Shown: in pieces, positions 12,252-28,304 of the stretch | Layout: each line of letters starts with the position of its first letter | How positions within the stretch are numbered: position 1 is the stretch's first letter | IMG/VR virus record: IMGVR_UViG_3300027730_000106 | Location: 1 to 29,007 of that record | Length of the DNA stretch: 29,007 bases | From: a virus | Reading direction: 5' to 3' (one strand) | The notes under the pieces: generated by a model | What the model was told of the DNA's origin: nothing | Database searches by the model: none | What the model saw: the letters and a program-made list of their open reading frames with translations, nothing else | Made by a program: the position numbers and the translations under genes

Positions 12252-13094
12252 ATGCCCTTCTTTACAGAACCAGATCCAAAAAGATTAACCCGCACAATAG
12301 AAAGTGTAAGGAATACTTTTTCTAAAGTATCTACAACCACATTTTTTAATGTGACATTTCCGATTAATGGTGGATTACGTACTTGGTTGAGTGGAACTGG
12401 TATTTTTGATGCTCAAGAAACTGATGGTCTGGATGGAATGGAAAAGATTGAATTGTTATGTTCCGATGCACTTTTACCAGGACCTGCATTTAAAAAAACT
12501 GAAGTTTTAGGAAATAGACAAGGTATTCGGGAAAGTTATCCTATTTTAAGAGCATTTCCTCAATTATCATTAACTTTTTATGTGGATAAGGATCATGCTA
12601 TAATTAGATTTTTTGAAGGTTGGTGTAATTTTATGAACCCTCTTTCATATGATGGGGATATTATTGAATCTACTAGAAGAGAACAAAATGATAGTAATTC
12701 TTTTGAAAATTCTTCCATTTATAAATTCAAATATCCAAATGATTATTGTCAACATATTCTTGTGACAAAATTTGAAAAGGATTTAGAAGCAGTATCATCA
12801 GCATCTGTTGCTAATTCATCTTATTTAACATATGAATTTATTCAAGCGTATCCATCAGATCTTATCGCATCCCCCGTATCATATCAAGGGTCTCAAGTAT
12901 TAAAATATACTGTTGTTTTTGAGTACATGAGATATATCACAAGAAGAACTCCAGCAGGATTTGTTACGGAAAGAACTAGTCCAAATAGTGGAGAATCTTC
13001 TTTACAATTTTCGAATGGAATATCAGGTTCAACTGGATTAAATTTTGGAATTAATTCAAATATAGTATTATCCGACTTTACTAGAATACTATAA
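12252..13094 (+). CDS. 54: gp54-like baseplate tail-tube initiator
   Basis: A 280-residue protein with the tail-tube fold. Diagnostic parts: KIELLCSDALLPG (the usual first strand of tube proteins), AFPQLSLTFYVDKDHAIIRF followed by FEGWCNFM (T4 gp54 has a similar ELDPLVISFRMD ... MQDWVNSV), and a C-terminal AYPSDLIASPVSYQGSQVL then KYTVVFEYMRY (T4: CIPVSVSSPELSYDGDN then DVTFAYRVM). With gp48 it would form the platform from which gp19 tube polymerises. It starts the plus-strand hub run. gp19-related tube proteins share the fold, so gp54 is the best but not the only reading. Confidence 0.78.
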   Translation: MPFFTEPDPKRLTRTIESVRNTFSKVSTTTFFNVTFPINGGLRTWLSGTGIFDAQETDGLDGMEKIELLCSDALLPGPAFKKTEVLGNRQGIRESYPILRAFPQLSLTFYVDKDHAIIRFFEGWCNFMNPLSYDGDIIESTRREQNDSNSFENSSIYKFKYPNDYCQHILVTKFEKDLEAVSSASVANSSYLTYEFIQAYPSDLIASPVSYQGSQVLKYTVVFEYMRYITRRTPAGFVTERTSPNSGESSLQFSNGISGSTGLNFGINSNIVLSDFTRIL

Positions 13095-13122: not shown

Positions 13123-13848
13123 ATGCCATTACCTACAATTGCGACTCCAACTTATGAACTTATTCTTCCCTCCAACGAAAAGAAGATTAAGTTTAGACCA
13201 TTTTTAGTGAAAGAAGAAAAAATACTGATTATTGCTTTAGAATCAAAAGATGTTGGACAAATTACATCTGCGGTTAAACAAGTTATTTCAGATTGTGTTT
13301 TAACGAAAGATATCAAAGTTCAGGAATTACCAATTTTTGATATTGAATATTTGTTCTTAAATATTCGAGCAAAGGCAATTGGGGAATCAATTAACCTTAT
13401 AATTACATGTGGAGATGATGGTGTTACTCAAGTACCTGTAACTATTTACGTTGATGAGATTAAAGTTAATCGAGAAGATGGTCATACTAATAAAATTGAA
13501 ATCCAAGATGGATATACAATTAAACTTAAATACCCATCTTTAGAACAGTTCATCAATAACAATTTTGATTTAACATCCAAGTCATCTGAAAACCTAGAGA
13601 AATCATCTAAATTAATTGCCATGTGTATAGACATGGTTTATAATAAAGATGATTGTTGGGTGGGATCTGATTGTACTGAAAAAGAAATTATGAGTTGGAT
13701 TGATACTCTAAGTCCAAAGGATTATAAGAAGATTGAAAAATTCTTCAAGACTATGCCAAAATTAAGTCATGAACTTAAAGTAGTTAATCCTGAAACTAAG
13801 GTCGAAAATACTCTTGTTTTAGAAGGGTTATCTGATTTTTTCGCCTAG
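13123..13848 (+). CDS. 26: gp26 baseplate hub assembly protein
   Basis: A 241-residue protein matching the T4-like gp26 family: TPTYELILPSNEKKIKFRPF, then LVKEEKILIIALES, the usual start of the family, then EYLFLNIRAKAIGE, a beta domain, and a C-terminal helical part (SWIDTLSPKDYKKIEKFF). gp26 acts in hub assembly in T4. The last codons are GAT TTT TTC GCC TAG, containing the slippery heptamer T TTT TTC. A -1 shift there would bypass the stop and continue into gp51, giving about 299 residues. The start ATG follows a late-type octamer in a hairpin. Confidence 0.88.
   Translation: MPLPTIATPTYELILPSNEKKIKFRPFLVKEEKILIIALESKDVGQITSAVKQVISDCVLTKDIKVQELPIFDIEYLFLNIRAKAIGESINLIITCGDDGVTQVPVTIYVDEIKVNREDGHTNKIEIQDGYTIKLKYPSLEQFINNNFDLTSKSSENLEKSSKLIAMCIDMVYNKDDCWVGSDCTEKEIMSWIDTLSPKDYKKIEKFFKTMPKLSHELKVVNPETKVENTLVLEGLSDFFA
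13836..13842 (+). promoter_or_regulatory. Predicted -1 ribosomal frameshift site (T TTT TTC)
   Basis: The heptamer is in the correct phase of the gp26 frame (GAT TTT TTC). After a -1 slip both tRNAs re-pair with TTT. The -1 frame opens only at this point (its last stop is TGA 13833-13835) and runs on through gp51. A GAAGGG sequence lies upstream at about 13822-13827 and could act as a stimulatory Shine-Dalgarno-like element. I see no strong stem-loop downstream. Confidence 0.7.
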
Positions 13849-14021
13849 CCCTGGCAAAGGAGGATCTGGAGACCTACTTCAGAGTTAATTTTGCCTTGAT
13901 GCAACACCATAAATATTCTTTGACTGAAATAGAAAATATGATTCCTTGGGAAAGAGAAATCTATCTCGAACTTTTGAAACAACACATAGAGGAATTGGAA
14001 GAGAAGAAACAAAATGGCTGA
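13836..14021 (+). CDS. 51: gp51 hub assembly catalyst, probably made as a gp26-gp51 fusion
   Basis: An open frame of about 60 codons in the -1 frame relative to gp26, ending at TGA 14019-14021. Its sequence LALAKEDLETYFRVNFALM, then QHHKYSLTEIENMIPWEREI, resembles gp51, which in T4 acts catalytically in hub assembly and lies next to gp26. No ATG, GTG or TTG occurs before TTG 13896/ATG 13899; starting there would remove about 18 conserved-looking residues. Entry by frameshift from gp26 explains the missing start. The alternative is a CTG start at 13851 without a well-placed ribosome binding site. It overlaps the next gene by 8 bases. Too short and start-less to be found by ordinary gene calling. 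Confidence 0.75.
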   Translation, partial: FFRLALAKEDLETYFRVNFALMQHHKYSLTEIENMIPWEREIYLELLKQHIEELEEKKQNG

Positions 14022-15360
14022 GGTTCAGCAGCAAGAACAAGAAAAACTAAATGTCATTGACATTTCGAAATTTTTTGGTGGAAAAACTTTATCATCTGCT
14101 GATGTGAGAGTTAATAAAAATGAAACTAAAAAAATTAAACCATCATTTATTGCTGCTCCTGAGTTAGCATCTTTACTTGATGTTGTTGCTACAAGTGTTG
14201 AAGATAAAAATAATAGTAATGCAAAAATAAAATCTGTAGAAAAAATTCGTGAAAGGGAAATTGTAGAAAGATCTACTTCGGATTCTAGATTTCAAAGAGT
14301 TCTTAGTGGATTGAGATTTGATATTGATTCAATTTCAACATCTTATACAAATTTAATCAAAAGTTTAGAAACTGATAGAAAAAATAAAGAAAAGGAGAAT
14401 CGTCTTGCTGAGGATTTACAAAAACAAAACGAAACTAGGTTAAGTACACAAAGAGTTGGATCATCTTTAGTAAAACCAACACAAACTATTGCTGGGGAAG
14501 AAGAGACAGCAGAAGAGACAGCGAAAGAAGGATTTGATATAAAGAAATTTCTTGGTGCCGCTGCTGCTGGTCTTGGTGTTGGTAGTATGTTTGGTGGTGA
14601 TGATGAATCTGGAGAAGTGGATCCAAATTACAAACCACCTTCAGGAAAAAAATTTACTGTGGGGCAATTAAAAGAACTGGCATTAAGTGTTGGATTTAAT
14701 GAAAAAAATGCTTCAATTGCTGCTGCTGTTGCAATGGGAGAATCTGGTGGAAACTCAAGTATATTGAATGACAATCCAAAAACTGGTGATCTATCTTATG
14801 GGTTGTGGCAAATTAATATGATTGGTGAAATGGGTCCAGAAAGAAAAAAACAATTTGGATTATCTTCATATAAAGATTTGTATGATCCAGTAACAAATGC
14901 AAGAGCAGCATTTAAACTTTCAGGGGGATCTAATTTCCAACCATGGAGTGTCTACAATGAAAAAACATATTTACCATTTTTAAAAGAAGCACAGACGCAT
15001 AAAAAAGCAGGTACTGTAACTGCAAAACCAGCAGCAGCAACTTCATCATCAACTTCAACTTCAAAACCAGCATCCTCAACTGTAGCAGTAGCACCTGCAG
15101 ATACAGATCCAATGGAAAAAATTTCTTCAAACTCGTCTTCTGTTGCTGTTGCTTCAAGTGGAATGAAACCAGCAGAAGTAACTCCAACCACAACTGGTTC
15201 TCAACTACCACCGATTATGATATCTCAGTCCCCCCCACCAAGATCCTCCGGTGGATCATACGGGGATGAGGAAACTGTAGGTAATGTGCCAGGATTCTCA
15301 TCAACAAATCCAGATAATTTGTATACTGCATATGCTTTAAAGGAATTAAATATAGTGTAG
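14014..15360 (+). CDS. Hub protein with lytic transglycosylase/lysozyme-like domain
   Basis: A 448-residue protein. Residues 70-145 are charged and likely coiled coil. A short Ala/Gly hydrophobic patch lies at about 178-195. Residues 214-325 look like a soluble lytic transglycosylase domain: IAAAVAMGESGGNSSILND with candidate catalytic E243, SYGLWQINM, then a helix-rich end with NARAAFKLSGGSNFQPWSVY. The rest is Ser/Thr/Pro/Ala-rich and ends NLYTAYALKELNIV. It would cut peptidoglycan during injection, the role T4 gives to the lysozyme domain of gp5, which is missing from the gp5-like protein here. Its position in the hub cluster (gp51 before, M23-like after) supports a tail role. Confidence 0.82.
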   Translation: MAEVQQQEQEKLNVIDISKFFGGKTLSSADVRVNKNETKKIKPSFIAAPELASLLDVVATSVEDKNNSNAKIKSVEKIREREIVERSTSDSRFQRVLSGLRFDIDSISTSYTNLIKSLETDRKNKEKENRLAEDLQKQNETRLSTQRVGSSLVKPTQTIAGEEETAEETAKEGFDIKKFLGAAAAGLGVGSMFGGDDESGEVDPNYKPPSGKKFTVGQLKELALSVGFNEKNASIAAAVAMGESGGNSSILNDNPKTGDLSYGLWQINMIGEMGPERKKQFGLSSYKDLYDPVTNARAAFKLSGGSNFQPWSVYNEKTYLPFLKEAQTHKKAGTVTAKPAAATSSSTSTSKPASSTVAVAPADTDPMEKISSNSSSVAVASSGMKPAEVTPTTTGSQLPPIMISQSPPPRSSGGSYGDEETVGNVPGFSSTNPDNLYTAYALKELNIV

Positions 15361-17915: not shown

Positions 17916-19928
17916 ATGTCACTTCTTGATCAATCTTCCACAGATATTAGATTACAATTAAACAAAGCAAACTTTTTAGGGAGAGATGGATTTTCGTGGT
18001 GGATTGGTCAAATCACAGATTTAAAATCTAGTACTGCAGATGAAGTTCAAATCCAAGCAAATGAATCTGGAGATCCTCTCTACTATAATAGAGTAAAAGT
18101 TCGAATTATGGGAAACCATACTGGTGAGGGGAATCAACTTGAAGATAAGAATCTTCCATGGGCTCATGTAATGATTCCTGCAGGAGAACCAAATGGTACT
18201 CTAGGAAATGGAAAGTCTCATCAATATAAAGGTGGTGAAACTGTAATTGGATTTTATCTTGATGGTGATGATGGGCAACAACCAGTTATTATAGGATCAT
18301 TTTATAAGCATTCTGGGGTTGTTTCTAAAACTGACCCAAGTAAAATTAAAAATTCTAAAAGTTCTGGTTATAAACCATTTGAACCTACACGAGTAGATAA
18401 TCCACAGTTACAAAATACTAAATGTCCAGATCCTAAAGGTGGTAAAAATGTTGTAACTAAAGTTGAAACTCCAATCACTTCTTCAGAAGCACAAAAACCA
18501 GGTTTAGAAACAACTGTAGTTGGAAGTAAAACTGGAGAAGTGAAAGACACAAGTCGAGCAGCTTGTGTATTTTCTCAAAAAAGTAATGATTGCACAATTC
18601 CTGTGGAAAAGTGTGAGCAGGACGAAATTAGTAGAATGACACACCAAATAACTGAACTTCAAAAAACACTATTAAAAGTTCAAGAATATCAAGGTAAATT
18701 TGTAAACTATGTTAGTGGTCAAATTATAGATTTAGATAACAAAATAAAAACTCTTGCAACAAAAATTAGTGAAACTATTTCCGGATTAATTAAAGATGGT
18801 CAAAATAAATTATATAAAGAAATTTCAAAAAAAATAAATGAAATGCTTGATAATTTATTTCCAAAAAATAAACAGGCGGAGGCTGGCAAAAAACTTAGAA
18901 CTTTAATCAGCGCATTATATTGCTTGTTTAAAAAAATTATCAAATCCTTGTTTGATTTAGTTTTGAAAATTGTTACAAATTCTTTAGATCAATTATTTGC
19001 AAACTTAACATGCAATATTGATAAATTTATTAATAAAATCTTTGACACAATATTTGGAGTTATTTCTAACTTAATTAATCCAGCAATTTCTGCGATTAAT
19101 TCTTTTTTGGGTGGAAGTTTAGGTTCTGTAAATGGAATTATTAATAGTGTATTAGGAATTGCAAATGTTATTAAATCACTTTTAAATTGCGAAGAATCTG
19201 CTTGTAAATCAAACAATGATAAATTCTGTATGAATAATGGTCCAACAACTTCTTCAATTCCATCTTTCAGTAATGTTTTTGAAAACTCTCCTGAATGTTC
19301 TAATATTTTTAAATGTGGTCCTCCAACTGTTCAATTCCTTGGTGGTGGTGGATTTGGAGCAGTTGCAAATGCAGTTATTAATGATCTTGGACAAGTTCTT
19401 GGATTTGATATTCTTAATGGTGGATCTGGATATAAAGAACCTCCTATCGTAAGTTTGAAAGATTCTTGTAATAATGGATCTGGATCTGTATTTGGTCCTG
19501 CAATTATAGAAAGAGGAGTAGTTGTTGCAGTTCCCATAATCAACCCCGGATCTGGTTATTTAAACACCATTGTTGTTGTAGTTCCCGGAGAACTCCCAAT
19601 TCCACAACCAAATCTAATTACCGAGGATCTAGTTCCAGAAATTGAAATCATTCATATTGATAATGGAGGAATTGGGTATAATTCCAGTGATATTGTTGAA
19701 TCTGGTAATGGTCAGTGGCAAGTTGTTACAGGTCCAAATGGGATTATTATAGGGTTGGATTTAATTAAATTACCAAGTCCAACAGGAACAAGAATTCCTG
19801 ATCTAACAATAAATACTTCTACTGGAGTAGGTGCTATTTTAGTTCCAGTAATTAAATTTGGCAAAATTAAAGATATTCAGATTGATCCTACTAAAATTAT
19901 TCAAGTCATTGATTGTGTGCAAAAATGA
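17916..19928 (+). CDS. 5: gp5-like OB-domain hub protein without lysozyme domain
   Basis: A 670-residue protein. Residues 20-135 match the gp5/VgrG OB fold: FSWWIGQITDL, RVKVRIMGNHTG, LPWAHVMIPAGEPNG, KGGETVIGFYLDGDDGQQPV, IIGSFYKH. There is no lysozyme domain. Residues about 240-430 form a helical, partly hydrophobic region (coiled coil, then IKSLFDLVLKIV, KIFDTIFGVISNL, INPAISAINSFLGG). The C-terminal 200 residues contain Gly-rich beta repeats with NGGSGY, NPGSGY and NGGIGY. There are 13 cysteines, unusual for a phage tail protein. It overlaps the next gene (ATGA), whose product looks like the beta-helix spike that T4 gp5 carries itself. Confidence 0.83.
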   Translation: MSLLDQSSTDIRLQLNKANFLGRDGFSWWIGQITDLKSSTADEVQIQANESGDPLYYNRVKVRIMGNHTGEGNQLEDKNLPWAHVMIPAGEPNGTLGNGKSHQYKGGETVIGFYLDGDDGQQPVIIGSFYKHSGVVSKTDPSKIKNSKSSGYKPFEPTRVDNPQLQNTKCPDPKGGKNVVTKVETPITSSEAQKPGLETTVVGSKTGEVKDTSRAACVFSQKSNDCTIPVEKCEQDEISRMTHQITELQKTLLKVQEYQGKFVNYVSGQIIDLDNKIKTLATKISETISGLIKDGQNKLYKEISKKINEMLDNLFPKNKQAEAGKKLRTLISALYCLFKKIIKSLFDLVLKIVTNSLDQLFANLTCNIDKFINKIFDTIFGVISNLINPAISAINSFLGGSLGSVNGIINSVLGIANVIKSLLNCEESACKSNNDKFCMNNGPTTSSIPSFSNVFENSPECSNIFKCGPPTVQFLGGGGFGAVANAVINDLGQVLGFDILNGGSGYKEPPIVSLKDSCNNGSGSVFGPAIIERGVVVAVPIINPGSGYLNTIVVVVPGELPIPQPNLITEDLVPEIEIIHIDNGGIGYNSSDIVESGNGQWQVVTGPNGIIIGLDLIKLPSPTGTRIPDLTINTSTGVGAILVPVIKFGKIKDIQIDPTKIIQVIDCVQK

Positions 19929-22172: not shown

Positions 22173-25100
22173 ATGCCTTTAAGTCGTTTAGAGAATTTTC
22201 TTAGGAATACTGACGGTAATATTTTATATGTCAATCCTAGTGATCTTGACGCAACAGATTCGATTGAAAATCAAGGAAACTCATTAACAAGACCTTTTAA
22301 AACAATTCAAAGGGCACTTTTAGAAGCAGCAAGATTTTCATATAACATTGGATTAAATAACGATAGATTTGATAGAACTACTATTTTAGTATACCCTGGC
22401 GTTAATTTTATTGATAACAGACCCGGTTATGTTGTAACAAATGCTGGTAATTCATTTTTAGAATTAGACCCAAATCTTTCACCAGCAACAACACCTGCTT
22501 ATGTTTCAGCATCTTTAAATGAACTTTCTTCATCTTCAAATTTTGATATTTTTAGCCCAACAAATGATCTTTACAAATATAATTCAAGTAGCGGTGGAGT
22601 AATACTACCTCGTGGTACTTCTATTATTGGTTTAGACCTTCGTAAAACTAAAATTCGCCCATTATTTGTTCCTGATCCTGAGAATGATTTAATTGTCAGA
22701 TCATCCATTTTTAGAATTACTGGTGGATGTTATTTTAGAGAATTTACTGTTTTTGATGGTGATCCTAATGGTACTGTTTATAAAAACTATAAAACTGATT
22801 TAGTTACACCATCTTTTTCACACCACAAACTTACAGTATTTGAATATGCTGATGGGGTAAATCCTTTAAGTAGGGTAAGTATTGGTTCTACAACATCGGC
22901 ATTTTCTGAACTTCAAATGTATTACATTAAAGTTCAAAAAGCTTATGGGGAAAGTTCTGGTCGAGCAATTGCAGATTATCCAACAACTGCAGATTTAGAA
23001 GTTATAAATCCAGAATTTAGAATTGTTGGTGCTGTAAGTCCCACAGATATTGGAATCAGTAGTGTCACTTCTATAGGAACTCTTGCAACAATTGATACAA
23101 CAACTGCACATGGAGTAATTGTAGATGATCCGATTAATATTGCCGGTATTTCTTCCAATCTTTACAATGGTTCTTTTGTAGTTGCTGGTGTTACTAGTGA
23201 AAGAAGATTCTCATATAAATTAACTGCAGACCCCGCAAATAATGGACCATCACTAACAGGATCTGCTAAGGTTGTTCTTGAAATTGATACAGTTTCTGGA
23301 GCATCTCCTTATATTTTTAATACTTCATTGAGAAGCACATATGGAATGTGTGGTCTTCATGCTGATGGATCAAAAGTATCTGGATTTAAATCTGTAGTTA
23401 TTGCACAATATACTGGAATTGGATTGCAGAAAGATGATAATGCATTTGTTCTTTATGATAAATCAACAGGTTCTTATAAAACTGAATCTCAGATTAGTGA
23501 TCCATCTTTAAAACCTTTACACTTAAATACAAACGCAGTTTATGCAGCAGATTATGAAAACTTTCACATAAAGGTATCTAATAACTCATATATTCAAGCA
23601 GTTTCTGTATTTGCGATTGGATTTGCAAATCAATTTATAACTGAAAGCGGTGGTGATTTAGGACTTACTAACTCAAACTCCAATTTTGGAGCAAAATCTT
23701 TAATATCTAAAGGATTTAGATCAGATGCTTTCTCTAGAGATAATACTGGATACATAACACACGTAATACCACCAAGAGATGAAACTCCAGAAGATACTGC
23801 AGTTTCTTGTTTTAGTTTAAATGTTGGATTAACAACTAATCCTGTTGGTGGGGCAACAACATCTAAATTATATATTTTTGGATTTAATGACGTTGATGTT
23901 CCTCCTAATGAGAATGTGAATGGATTTCGTATTGGATCAAAAAATTCTGATACATTTAATGTTGAAATAAACGATGTTACAGTTACAACTCCAATTTTAA
24001 TGCCAATTCCTGGTACTGGAGATGGACCTTCAGCAAGAAAAGTTTTTACTGTTTCTAGAACTAATAATGCAAATGATATTAGTTCAAATATTTTAACTCT
24101 CACCTCAAATCACAACTTCTTTAATGGAGAAAGTGTTAGAATACTATCAGATGATGGATATGTACCAGATGAACTGGTAAATAATGGATTATATTTTGTA
24201 ATTACAAATACATTTGATGGCAGTCTAACTGCAAATACAATTAAACTTGCAGCAACGTTTAACGATGCAACTGTAGGAACACCATTCCCAGTTACAATCA
24301 CCAATACTGTTGGTGGTATTCTTAGTATTGAAAGTAGAGTAACTGATAAAAAACCAAGTGATCTTGGTCACCCAATTCAATTTGATACTACAAATTCAAA
24401 TTGGTATATTGTAGGATCTGGAACAACACTTCAAAACAAAATTAATCAATCATTCATTGATAATCGATCTTCATTAGGAGACCAGAGTAGTTTAGGTTTC
24501 ATATTAAGAAAACCCGATAACAGATTATTAAATGATAGAATTTATAGACTTAGATATGTAATACCAAAAGAATTTGCAAATGCAAAAGAACCTAGTGTAA
24601 GTTATATCCTCCAAGAAACTTCAACTGTTGGAGTATCAAGTGCTTTAGAATATGGTGCAGTTGGAGACGTAACAAAACAGAGAAATGTAAAGATTATTGC
24701 AAATGCAGTTTATGGATCGAATATTATTACCTTTACCACAGAAAAACCACATGGATTTAATGTATCTGACGCTGTAGTTGTCAATAAAGTAATAAGTACC
24801 GATAATCCTACAGGTGTGGGACAATCTGGTTATAATGAGACTTATACGATTACAAGTGTTCCTACTACTAAAACCTTTAAAGTTACTACAGCAAAAACAA
24901 CTCTTGGTGCATTTGGTAATGAAATTTCGTCAAGGGATGTAAATCTTCCAACAGTTGCTCGTAATCAATATCGAAATACTTACTTGATTAGTAGTGTTGA
25001 TACTATACAACAATATATTTCCGGTGAAAGGGACGGAATATATCATTTAATTTGTTTAGATGGAAGTGTATCTCCATCAACATCTGATGGTACATTTAAC

Positions 25101-28100
25101 AATGAAAAACTACATCAAAACTTAGGAAACTTATATCCTACTATAGATCGGGACAATTATAATTCAGATCCTACAATTGCTAGAAGTTTTGTAATTCCTT
25201 ATAATATTGGTGAAGTTATTGTAAATGATTCTAGAGATAGTATTACAAAAGAAAGTTCTGTAAATTATTATAAGGATAACCGAATTGGATTTGGAATTAC
25301 AAATGCAATTTCAAATTCGAGTGGGATTACAACGGTTTTCACTAATATAGAGCATAATTTAAACACAATCACTACACTTTCAATAACTGCTGCTGGGACT
25401 GGATATGGAGCAGGAATTGCGACTTTCCTTTATAATGTTCCTCTGGTGGGAACTGGTATTACTGGTGATGGTGCTACTGCTAAGATTAGAGTAAGTGCTA
25501 TTGGTGCAGTTACTGCAGTTGAAATTATTGATGGTGGATCTGCTTATGGCGTAGGTAATACTATGCGAGTTGGTGCTGGTGGTAACGCAATTGTTTCTGT
25601 AACTGCAATCAATAGTAACATTGGTAATGTTATAGAAGTAGTTGGAGTAGGTACAACTGCTAATAGATTTAATAGTGGATATAATGGTGTATATCGAATT
25701 ACTGGGATTAATAGCACAAGAAGTGTTACATATGAAATTAAAGGTGGTGCAAACACTGCAATTAATGCGGGTATCTTTACTTCGGTAAATGGATACGAAG
25801 GATTACTATTTGTATCAGATAGATCAGTAGGTGTAAGCACAATTGGTTATGGTAATAGTAGTGTTGGAATAGTTACTGTTACTACTCAATCTGCACATGG
25901 ATTAATACTTGGTAATAAATTTAAAATTGTAGGGGCCGCACAGACAATCTACAATGGAACATATGTCGTTAGAGAAAGAGTTGGATTAAATACATTCTCA
26001 TTTGACATTGGTGCTGGTACTAGCAATCCTGCATTTACTACTAATAGTGGAGTATTTGTACTTAAACAGTCCTTTGCTTCACAGAAATCTGAATTTGAAG
26101 ATAAGTCGGAAAAAATTGCAGGTAGATTAACTCCATTCTATGCTGGTTTATCTACAACTCTTGGAGGATCTCAAACAGGAACTGCAACTACAATTAAACT
26201 TACTTCTCTGACTGGAATTTCTACTGGTGACTATTTACAAATTGATAATGAAATTGTAAGAATTAGTAGCGAATTAAATGCTTCTACTGGAGTTGCAAAT
26301 GTTCTGCGTGGTGTTCTTGGAACTAAAGCAGAATCTCATGAAAATACAGCAGTTGCAAGAGAAGTTAAACCAATTGCAACTGAATTAAGAAGATATTCTA
26401 CTGTTCGTGCATCTGGACATACATTTGAATATCTTGGATTTGGACATGGTAATTATTCTGTTGGATTACCACAAAGACAGTCTAGAGTTCTAACTATTAA
26501 AAATCAACTTCTAAGCCAAGGAAAGCAATCTGACGGTGGATCTGTTGCTTATACTGGTATGAATGATAATGGTGATTTTTATATTGGAAATAAAAGAATT
26601 AGTTCTACAAATGGAGAAGAAGAAACTTTAAACGCTCCTATTCAAAATTTCTTAGGAGAACAAATTTCTTCTTTATCTGTAAATTTTGATGATGTTACCA
26701 TCAAAAATAGTTTAAATGTTCAAGGTGGAAATAGTGGAAGAGTAATTAGTGAATTTAAAGGTCCTGTAAATTTCATTAAAAAAATTACTTCAACTTCAAG
26801 TGATGGGATAGAAGGAATTAAATTTAAGTTGAAAGGTTCCTTATCTCAACCAAGATCCGTGTCTTATGGTGGAGACAATGTACCTTCAAGCTCTCCAGAT
26901 GCTCAAGGTGATATTTTCTTCAATGGTCACGCTACATCTGGACAATATGCTGGATGGATAAACACTGGTAATTCTGCAAACGATTGGAAAAAGTTTGGAC
27001 TAATAAGTAGATCTGCTACAGAAACATTCATAACACCAGATCGAATTGGTATTAATACTTCTGGCCCTGTAAGAGGACTTCCTGCATCTGGAATTACTTC
27101 TGCACTCTTAGATGTTCGTGGTGGTGGAGTTTTTGATGCTCTTCGTGTGATTGGAAATGTTGATTTTGTAAATGGTGCTACATTTGCCTCAATTTCTTTT
27201 GTAGATACTTTTATAACAGGAATCGTTTCTTTTACAGGTACAACAGATTCAACTACTCCAGTAACAGGTATTGTAACTGTTGCTGGTGGTGTTGGAATTA
27301 AGAAAAGTCTTAACGTTGGTGCTGGATTATCGGTAAGTGGTGTTGGTACTTTTGCACAAAGTCTTAACGTTGGTGCAGGATTATCGGTAAGTGGTGTTGG
27401 TACTTTTGCACAAAGTCTTAACGTTGGTGCAGGATTATCGGTAAGTGGTGTTGGTACTTTTGCCGGTATTACTACAGTTACTGGGACTACATTATTTTCT
27501 AAACAACTTAATGTTTCTGGTGTCTCAACCTTTAATGGTATTGTTAAAGTTGGTGCCGCAATTAGTTTATTTCCTTCTACTGGAATTGTCAGTGCGACTT
27601 CATTCTATGGTGATGGTACTAATCTAACTAATACCGGTTCGACTTTAAGTGCTGCTTCTGGATCTCAGAGAGTAGTTGTTACAAGTCAGACAACTGGTAC
27701 AATGACTACTTCAGCAACTGATAGTGATTTAACATTTAATGCCACTACAAATACATTATCTTCCTCGAATATAAGTATTGGAAACTCTCTGGGAGTTACT
27801 GGTGCCACTACACTTACTGGTAATTTAATAGTCACTGCACCATCAACAATTAGTGGAAACGGAACAATTCCAGTTGGTGGAATTATTATGTGGTCTGGAA
27901 CGATTGTAAATATTCCAACAGGTTGGGCACTTTGTGATGGTTCAAATAATACTCCAGACTTAAGAAATAAGTTTGTTATTGGTGCTCATAGTGGTGGTGG
28001 AACTGGTATTACTTCTACTGCTGGTCCTGGATTTAGTATTACTACTGGAGCTTTAAGTGCAAACTATACTCCTGGTAATACTGGTGGTAAGACTGCACAC

Positions 28101-28304
28101 CAACTTACTATTGACGAACTTGCTTCTCATAGTCACACGGTTTCTAATATTTGTACTTTTCCGGGAAGTATTTCAGATCCAGGTGGCGGAGGAAATAGCC
28201 ATGAGAATACATCTTCACGCGGAACTTCTTCAGTAGGCGGCAGCAAATTCCACGAAAACAGACCACCATACTATGCTCTGGCATTCATTATGAGAACTTC
28301 ATAA
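22173..28304 (+). CDS. Very large tail fibre protein with collar-type C-terminus
   Basis: A 2043-residue protein. The N-terminal 300 residues suggest a pectate-lyase-like beta-helix (NGNILYVNPSDLDATDS-type start, FKTIQRALLEAAR, TTILVYPG, GVILPRGTSIIGLDL). The middle holds repeated beta modules with an HG or HN turn near residues 310, 645, 857, 1059 and 1239 (AHGVIVDDPINIAG, AHGLILGNKFKIVG, with YNGSFVV/YNGTYVV) and Gly-rich GxGYG segments. Residues 1712-1764 are an almost perfect triple repeat (see 27306). The end is a tail collar domain: GTIPVGGIIMWSG, GWALCDGSNNTPDLRNKFVIG, LASHSHTV (possible metal-binding His pair) and PPYYALAFIMRTS. It should bind the host surface. An exact late promoter precedes it. 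Confidence 0.92.
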   Translation: MPLSRLENFLRNTDGNILYVNPSDLDATDSIENQGNSLTRPFKTIQRALLEAARFSYNIGLNNDRFDRTTILVYPGVNFIDNRPGYVVTNAGNSFLELDPNLSPATTPAYVSASLNELSSSSNFDIFSPTNDLYKYNSSSGGVILPRGTSIIGLDLRKTKIRPLFVPDPENDLIVRSSIFRITGGCYFREFTVFDGDPNGTVYKNYKTDLVTPSFSHHKLTVFEYADGVNPLSRVSIGSTTSAFSELQMYYIKVQKAYGESSGRAIADYPTTADLEVINPEFRIVGAVSPTDIGISSVTSIGTLATIDTTTAHGVIVDDPINIAGISSNLYNGSFVVAGVTSERRFSYKLTADPANNGPSLTGSAKVVLEIDTVSGASPYIFNTSLRSTYGMCGLHADGSKVSGFKSVVIAQYTGIGLQKDDNAFVLYDKSTGSYKTESQISDPSLKPLHLNTNAVYAADYENFHIKVSNNSYIQAVSVFAIGFANQFITESGGDLGLTNSNSNFGAKSLISKGFRSDAFSRDNTGYITHVIPPRDETPEDTAVSCFSLNVGLTTNPVGGATTSKLYIFGFNDVDVPPNENVNGFRIGSKNSDTFNVEINDVTVTTPILMPIPGTGDGPSARKVFTVSRTNNANDISSNILTLTSNHNFFNGESVRILSDDGYVPDELVNNGLYFVITNTFDGSLTANTIKLAATFNDATVGTPFPVTITNTVGGILSIESRVTDKKPSDLGHPIQFDTTNSNWYIVGSGTTLQNKINQSFIDNRSSLGDQSSLGFILRKPDNRLLNDRIYRLRYVIPKEFANAKEPSVSYILQETSTVGVSSALEYGAVGDVTKQRNVKIIANAVYGSNIITFTTEKPHGFNVSDAVVVNKVISTDNPTGVGQSGYNETYTITSVPTTKTFKVTTAKTTLGAFGNEISSRDVNLPTVARNQYRNTYLISSVDTIQQYISGERDGIYHLICLDGSVSPSTSDGTFNNEKLHQNLGNLYPTIDRDNYNSDPTIARSFVIPYNIGEVIVNDSRDSITKESSVNYYKDNRIGFGITNAISNSSGITTVFTNIEHNLNTITTLSITAAGTGYGAGIATFLYNVPLVGTGITGDGATAKIRVSAIGAVTAVEIIDGGSAYGVGNTMRVGAGGNAIVSVTAINSNIGNVIEVVGVGTTANRFNSGYNGVYRITGINSTRSVTYEIKGGANTAINAGIFTSVNGYEGLLFVSDRSVGVSTIGYGNSSVGIVTVTTQSAHGLILGNKFKIVGAAQTIYNGTYVVRERVGLNTFSFDIGAGTSNPAFTTNSGVFVLKQSFASQKSEFEDKSEKIAGRLTPFYAGLSTTLGGSQTGTATTIKLTSLTGISTGDYLQIDNEIVRISSELNASTGVANVLRGVLGTKAESHENTAVAREVKPIATELRRYSTVRASGHTFEYLGFGHGNYSVGLPQRQSRVLTIKNQLLSQGKQSDGGSVAYTGMNDNGDFYIGNKRISSTNGEEETLNAPIQNFLGEQISSLSVNFDDVTIKNSLNVQGGNSGRVISEFKGPVNFIKKITSTSSDGIEGIKFKLKGSLSQPRSVSYGGDNVPSSSPDAQGDIFFNGHATSGQYAGWINTGNSANDWKKFGLISRSATETFITPDRIGINTSGPVRGLPASGITSALLDVRGGGVFDALRVIGNVDFVNGATFASISFVDTFITGIVSFTGTTDSTTPVTGIVTVAGGVGIKKSLNVGAGLSVSGVGTFAQSLNVGAGLSVSGVGTFAQSLNVGAGLSVSGVGTFAGITTVTGTTLFSKQLNVSGVSTFNGIVKVGAAISLFPSTGIVSATSFYGDGTNLTNTGSTLSAASGSQRVVVTSQTTGTMTTSATDSDLTFNATTNTLSSSNISIGNSLGVTGATTLTGNLIVTAPSTISGNGTIPVGGIIMWSGTIVNIPTGWALCDGSNNTPDLRNKFVIGAHSGGGTGITSTAGPGFSITTGALSANYTPGNTGGKTAHQLTIDELASHSHTVSNICTFPGSISDPGGGGNSHENTSSRGTSSVGGSKFHENRPPYYALAFIMRTS
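27306..27463 (+). repeat. Three tandem 54-bp repeats inside tail fibre gene
   Basis: Units start at 27306, 27360 and 27414; the third is 50 bases before it diverges. Each encodes the 18-residue unit SLNVGAGLSVSGVGTFAQ. Only one base differs (GCT versus GCA for Ala in the first unit), so the expansion is recent. Confidence 0.95.

Follow-up and report, generated by a model that had tools for sequence, protein, structure and literature searches.

Where a gp26-like gene of a T4-like phage ends in a run of T residues and a second reading frame opens there in the -1 register, the question is raised whether two proteins are encoded or a single protein in two lengths. Such a junction lies in the 29,007-nucleotide stretch analyzed here (IMG/VR virus record IMGVR_UViG_3300027730_000106, positions 1 to 29,007; hereafter the window), and an earlier note, made from the sequence alone, proposed that a programmed -1 frameshift joins gp26 to gp51. 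The gp26-like ORF (13123..13848, + strand) encodes a 241-aa product that is interpreted as the short form of a tail assembly chaperone, matching PF12322 (E=1e-67) and phrog_150 (E=7e-71) in profile searches. Direct reading of its 3' end as GGG TTA TCT GAT TTT TTC GCC TAG agrees with the description in the earlier note; the slippery heptamer T TTT TTC (13836..13842, + strand) lies in the gp26 frame, in the phase that simultaneous -1 slippage requires. At this heptamer the -1 frame opens, as had also been described: a TGA at 13833-13835 stands directly 5' of it, the frame is open from 13836, and its stop is at 14019-14021. With residue 1 taken as the first Phe of this ORF, no ATG, GTG or TTG occurs over 20 codons, the first being a TTG at residue 21, followed by ATG22. 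In-phase TTTTTTN occurs nine times in the 8,987 codons listed for the window, and only the junction copy falls among a gene's last five codons.

The segment read after the shift (13842..14021, + strand) comprises 59 codons and a stop, and would form the C-terminal part of the long form. The 61-aa product of the -1 ORF matches phrog_634, annotated as 'baseplate hub assembly catalyst' (E=9e-28), and also positions 231-280 of 282 in the gp26 profile phrog_150; a match to the last 50 positions of that profile implies that phrog_150 already contains single-chain gp26-gp51 proteins. Relatives of the -1 ORF found by tblastn align from residue 1. The predicted fusion is 299 aa long, with the predicted junction peptide ...VENTLVLEGLSDFFR followed by LALAK, and the predicted short form terminates in ...SDFFA (peptide VENTLVLEGLSDFFA).

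Relatives were gathered by scanning viral contigs with protein and DNA patterns, and named phages were added; for nearly all loci the scan patterns did not include the heptamer, and a few loci came from a heptamer-containing pattern. This yielded 216 distinct gp26/gp51 junctions, which were read mechanically and fall into 88 clusters at 85% identity. An alignment of such junctions had been suggested as a check on the frameshift, and it bears the proposal out: all 216 have their second ORF in the -1 frame, and an in-phase T TTT TTN is present in 213 (187 TTTTTTC, 13 TTTTTTT, 11 TTTTTTA and 2 TTTTTTG). The heptamer is present in Kyanoviridae and in non-Tevenvirinae Straboviridae (KVP40- and Aeh1-type), and junctions from Pootjesviridae carry TTTTTTG or TTTTTTC. 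The three junctions without it are two from Ackermannviridae and one locus (L173) with a deletion in gp26. L173 was considered as a working junction without a heptamer and rejected, as the internal deletion fuses ...EQLNTKQF to sequence just past the heptamer; the gp26 end of this locus appears to be broken or misassembled. In 88/88 clusters a T precedes TTT, though the codon to which it belongs may specify Ser, Asp, Asn or Ala; TTT is likewise used for the first Phe in 88/88 clusters, against a background share of 0.71 among Phe codons. From background codon use, the chance of these patterns is ~10^-11.7 for the preceding T and ~10^-12.7 for TTT, on the assumption of independent clusters, which they are not fully. 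The slippery site has thus been kept across diverged relatives beyond the constraint imposed by the protein.

The sequence upstream of the heptamer is likewise constrained. In the window a weak Shine-Dalgarno-like element, AGAAGGG (13821..13827, + strand), has its AAGG at 13823-13826, 9 nt before the heptamer; it is weaker than the element of most relatives, whose usual form is GGAGG or GAGG with its end 10 nt from the heptamer. Just upstream, 78/88 clusters have four or more bases that match a Shine-Dalgarno sequence, compared with 27% of control windows within gp26. The Glu codon at the element is GAG in 52/62 cases against a background of 29% (p=1e-18), and the Leu codon preceding that Glu favors NTG, a bias in both codons that points to selection on the nucleotides and not on the protein alone. 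A literature search, of incomplete coverage, found no report of this upstream element.

Downstream of the heptamer, a two-layer stem is predicted in the window (13853..13895, + strand; -18.2 kcal/mol over 70 nt), beginning 10 nt from the heptamer, in which an outer layer pairs GGCAAAG (13853-13859) with TTTTGCC (13889-13895) and an inner layer pairs TCTGGAG (13865-13871) with CTTCAGA (13877-13883). RNAalifold returned no single consensus structure across all 88 downstream sequences because the lineages use different bases for the hairpin; per-sequence and synonymous-codon folding tests were therefore used in its place. The first 60 nt downstream are predicted to be more stable than versions recoded with synonymous codons, with z=-3.27 for the window and a mean of -2.05 over the 88 clusters, compared with -0.3 to -0.6 for control stretches of gp26 in the same test. 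In the commonest class, a 5-nt spacer is followed by a predicted 11-bp hairpin formed by AGTATGGCTCA with TGAGTCATACT; across 19 sequences this register pairs in 73% of cells, as opposed to 30-46% when it is slid, and 0/500 shuffles reached as high a value. Other lineages form predicted hairpins at the same place from different bases. At the family level, the junction is therefore consistent with a -1 frameshift cassette that includes a Shine-Dalgarno-like element and a hairpin at set distances from the heptamer.

The relation of these products to the T4 proteins was assessed by profile comparison using hhalign. A fusion profile of 83 cluster members matches T4-type gp51 over its full length (Prob 99.4, 13-290 vs 5-251), the short-form profile matches T4-type gp26 up to its last residues (Prob 99.6), and T4-type gp26 and gp51 also match each other (Prob 98.9). 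In T2, both gp26 and gp51 match full-length PF12322, with the extension present only in gp51, and gp51 matches both phrog_150 and phrog_634. As the fusion is colinear with gp51 and the short form corresponds to gp26, T4 encodes the short and long forms as two paralogous genes, and its gp51 is the natural in-frame equivalent of the fusion. The claim that the -1 ORF is gp51 accordingly needs refining, since the ORF corresponds to the C-terminal ~50 residues of gp51 and it is the whole fusion that is equivalent to the T4 protein; similarly, gp26 and gp51 of T4, described in the earlier note as adjacent and separately started, are paralogous short and long forms sitting on opposite strands. T4 therefore resembles the window's phage in having homologous proteins of a short-plus-long design, and differs in using two opposite-strand genes without slippage where the window's phage has one gene and a -1 shift. 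The T4 gp26 also ends in Phe-Phe (EFF), but the pair is coded TTC TTT (locus L041, 3080-3118; locus L261, 151-777 and 828-1577), so that T4, which has a separate gene (51) for the long form, lacks the heptamer.

Structural information on the short form comes from an AlphaFold2 model of gp26 (pLDDT 82.6). When this model was searched with Foldseek, weak matches were obtained to the HK97 chaperone gp13 (2OB9; prob 0.85, E ~0.8, 62 columns at 2.7 A) and to the chaperone-like structure 3FGX (prob 0.47, E ~3.4), the two which stand out by probability among the PDB matches. A search of solved structures by sequence with the gp26 profile gave chance caspase matches only. Both gp26 and gp51 are listed as hub assembly chaperones, gp51 being essential, of unknown function and absent from the particle (PMC3004832).

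The explanation that is favored, with high confidence, is that gp26 and the -1 ORF constitute one tail assembly chaperone gene whose long form would be produced by -1 slippage on T TTT TTC. The colinearity of the fusion with T4 gp51 and the match of T4 gp26 to the short form indicate a short/long tail assembly chaperone pair, and a G/GT-like arrangement, as first proposed, is strongly supported by the heptamers, the putative stimulators with their synonymous constraint, the frame relation and this colinearity. The main competing explanation has the -1 ORF translated on its own, by termination-reinitiation from an internal start shortly past the gp26 stop; this start would be an ATG at residue 6 in many relatives and TTG21 or ATG22 in the window. 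The GenBank records of P-SSM2 and S-PM2 place the gp51 start at the residue-6 ATG, and an early ATG (residue <=9, most often 6) that could in principle reinitiate occurs in 41/88 clusters, every one of which also has the heptamer; a start at a normal ATG with no heptamer, the situation that would have told against a frameshift, is absent in these close relatives. However, 47/88 clusters lack an ATG within the first 12 residues, yet similarity still runs from residue 1, which means that an internal ATG start is not general, and in the commonest class the early ATG lies inside the predicted hairpin and 24 nt from the GGAGG. Reinitiation would also leave the conservation of the heptamer and of the synonymous sites unexplained, and T4 gp51 has its gp26-like part within the same chain; this explanation is therefore regarded as improbable. 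A CTG start in the window following GGAGG was considered separately and rejected, as the Shine-Dalgarno spacing is too short (2 nt).

Outside the close relatives, a start overlapping the gp26 stop without a heptamer was found only in distant Ackermannviridae and in Vibrio phage D510, and these cases count in favor of reinitiation. In Ackermannviridae (loci L262-L279, L042 and L044), the C-terminal part of the chaperone lies in the -1 frame without a heptamer, and the gp26 stop region carries a conserved ATTTTCATTTAAT with one change in L278; the junction reads TTC ATT TAATT in most and TAATG in three (L276-L278), and that of D510 is TAATG. The TAATT or TAATG in place of a heptamer makes an ATG or ATT start overlapping the gp26 stop likely in Ackermannviridae, possibly involving an ATT start codon or else an unusual slip site. 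Two further explanations were weighed. If the Phe pair were kept for the protein only, the heptamer would be a by-product of AT-rich codon use, and it is true that gp26 terminates in FF family-wide, T4 included, and that TTT is the commoner Phe codon in the background; the TTC TTT of T4, the invariant T preceding the pair over four different amino acids, the invariant TTT and the constraint on the upstream and downstream elements make this scarcely credible. Slippage might also occur without a role, with the long form tolerated and the short form alone acting as the chaperone, which is considered very improbable as the sequence of the extension is conserved and T4 retains a dedicated long-form gene, the gp51 product being essential for hub assembly though not found in the particle (PMC3004832).

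Under the favored explanation of a single chaperone gene with -1 slippage, most ribosomes would terminate at the TAG at 13846 to give the 241-aa short form, and a minority would slip one base back on T TTT TTC to give the 299-aa long form with its 59-residue C-terminal extension, aided by an upstream Shine-Dalgarno-like pull and by the downstream RNA structure. If the parallel with lambda G/GT and P2 E/E' holds, the tape measure would be coated by the short form, and the extension would recruit tail tube subunits. A wider reading, toward which the evidence leans to a lesser degree, combines two proposals: that the marine T4-like chaperone gene carries a full three-part cassette (a Shine-Dalgarno-like stimulator ~10 nt upstream, T TTT TTN, and, ~5 nt downstream, a hairpin in which the one plausible internal start is also hidden), and that related phages arrived at the same short/long pair by three routes, namely slippage, the duplication seen in T4, and probably an overlapping start in Ackermannviridae.

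Upstream of the gp26-like ORF lies a tail tube/initiator-like gene (12252..13094, + strand; phrog_45 tail tube, E=1e-21), and downstream a gene with an SLT/lysozyme-like domain (14014..15360, + strand; SLT_3, E=3e-20) overlaps the end of the -1 ORF and sits where a tape measure gene is usually found. When the downstream ORFs of the window, KVP40-type, Aeh1-type and Agrobacterium phages were compared with T2 gp29 using hhalign, no similarity was found that would identify them as the tape measure. Like a tape measure gene, the downstream gene is variable in length, with 386 to 846 aa in most relatives, and conservation can extend to its N- and C-terminal parts with a differing middle, as if enzyme domains had been swapped; in locus L009, for example, the match covers residues 1-180 and 352-448 only. 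Further along, 17916-19928 encodes a baseplate hub/tail lysozyme-like (gp5) protein whose middle weakly matches several tape measure profiles, and 22173-28304 encodes a 2043-aa fiber-like protein with three near-identical tandem repeat copies reading SLNVGAGLSVSGVGTFA. In GenBank, the -1 extension is unannotated in S-CAM1 (L026), S-H9-1 (L027), ACG-2014d (L028), ACG-2014b (L040), DSL-LC03 (L023) and Aeh1 (L029), and in the records of Mosig (L030) and Melnitz (L039) it begins at an internal ATG, at residue 22.

Among known systems, the locus can be compared with P2 E/E' and lambda G/GT, in which a short form and a -1 frameshifted long form are likewise encoded after the tail tube gene. The P2 heptamer, T TTT TTG, is T-rich, and TTTTTTG is also found in the Rhizobium phage relatives. 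The difference from these pairs is that gp26 is larger (241 aa), and its modeled structure resembles HK97 gp13 only weakly. In E. coli dnaX, a Shine-Dalgarno-like element ~10 nt upstream and a hairpin ~5 nt downstream flank the heptamer, and the same three-part layout is seen at the chaperone junction; however, dnaX is an unrelated gene which uses A AAA AAG to make a shorter product, whereas the window has T TTT TTC and a predicted longer product.

Chaperone genes of T4-like phages have apparently been named by Vladimirov, Gautam and Davidson (Virology 2022, doi 10.1016/j.virol.2021.11.003). Papers that cite this study credit it with the finding that certain T4-like phages have the fusion gene and that others have poly-T slippery signals, and PMC12846349 attributes to it the poly-T slippery signals of short-form genes in T4-like phages. 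Going by these accounts, the core idea is apparently not new, its generalization having been published; the proposal that T4-type hub chaperones join the general scheme is supported by the present analysis, and only as a new idea does it appear to have been anticipated in 2022. The evidence for the stimulators may be new.

Taken together, the sequence data indicate that the marine-type virus of bacteria represented by the window almost certainly produces one tail-building helper in two lengths, short and long, by a one-base slip at a fixed position. Many cyanophage and marine phage genomes omit the -1 ORF or give it an internal start, an annotation that this reading corrects; the reading also puts gp26 and gp51 of T4, hub factors that have long been puzzling, into one chaperone scheme. 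It further offers a natural comparison, in which slippage would yield in most lineages the protein pair for which T4 uses two genes, and the evidence for the stimulators would provide a ready model for Shine-Dalgarno-aided -1 frameshifting beyond E. coli.
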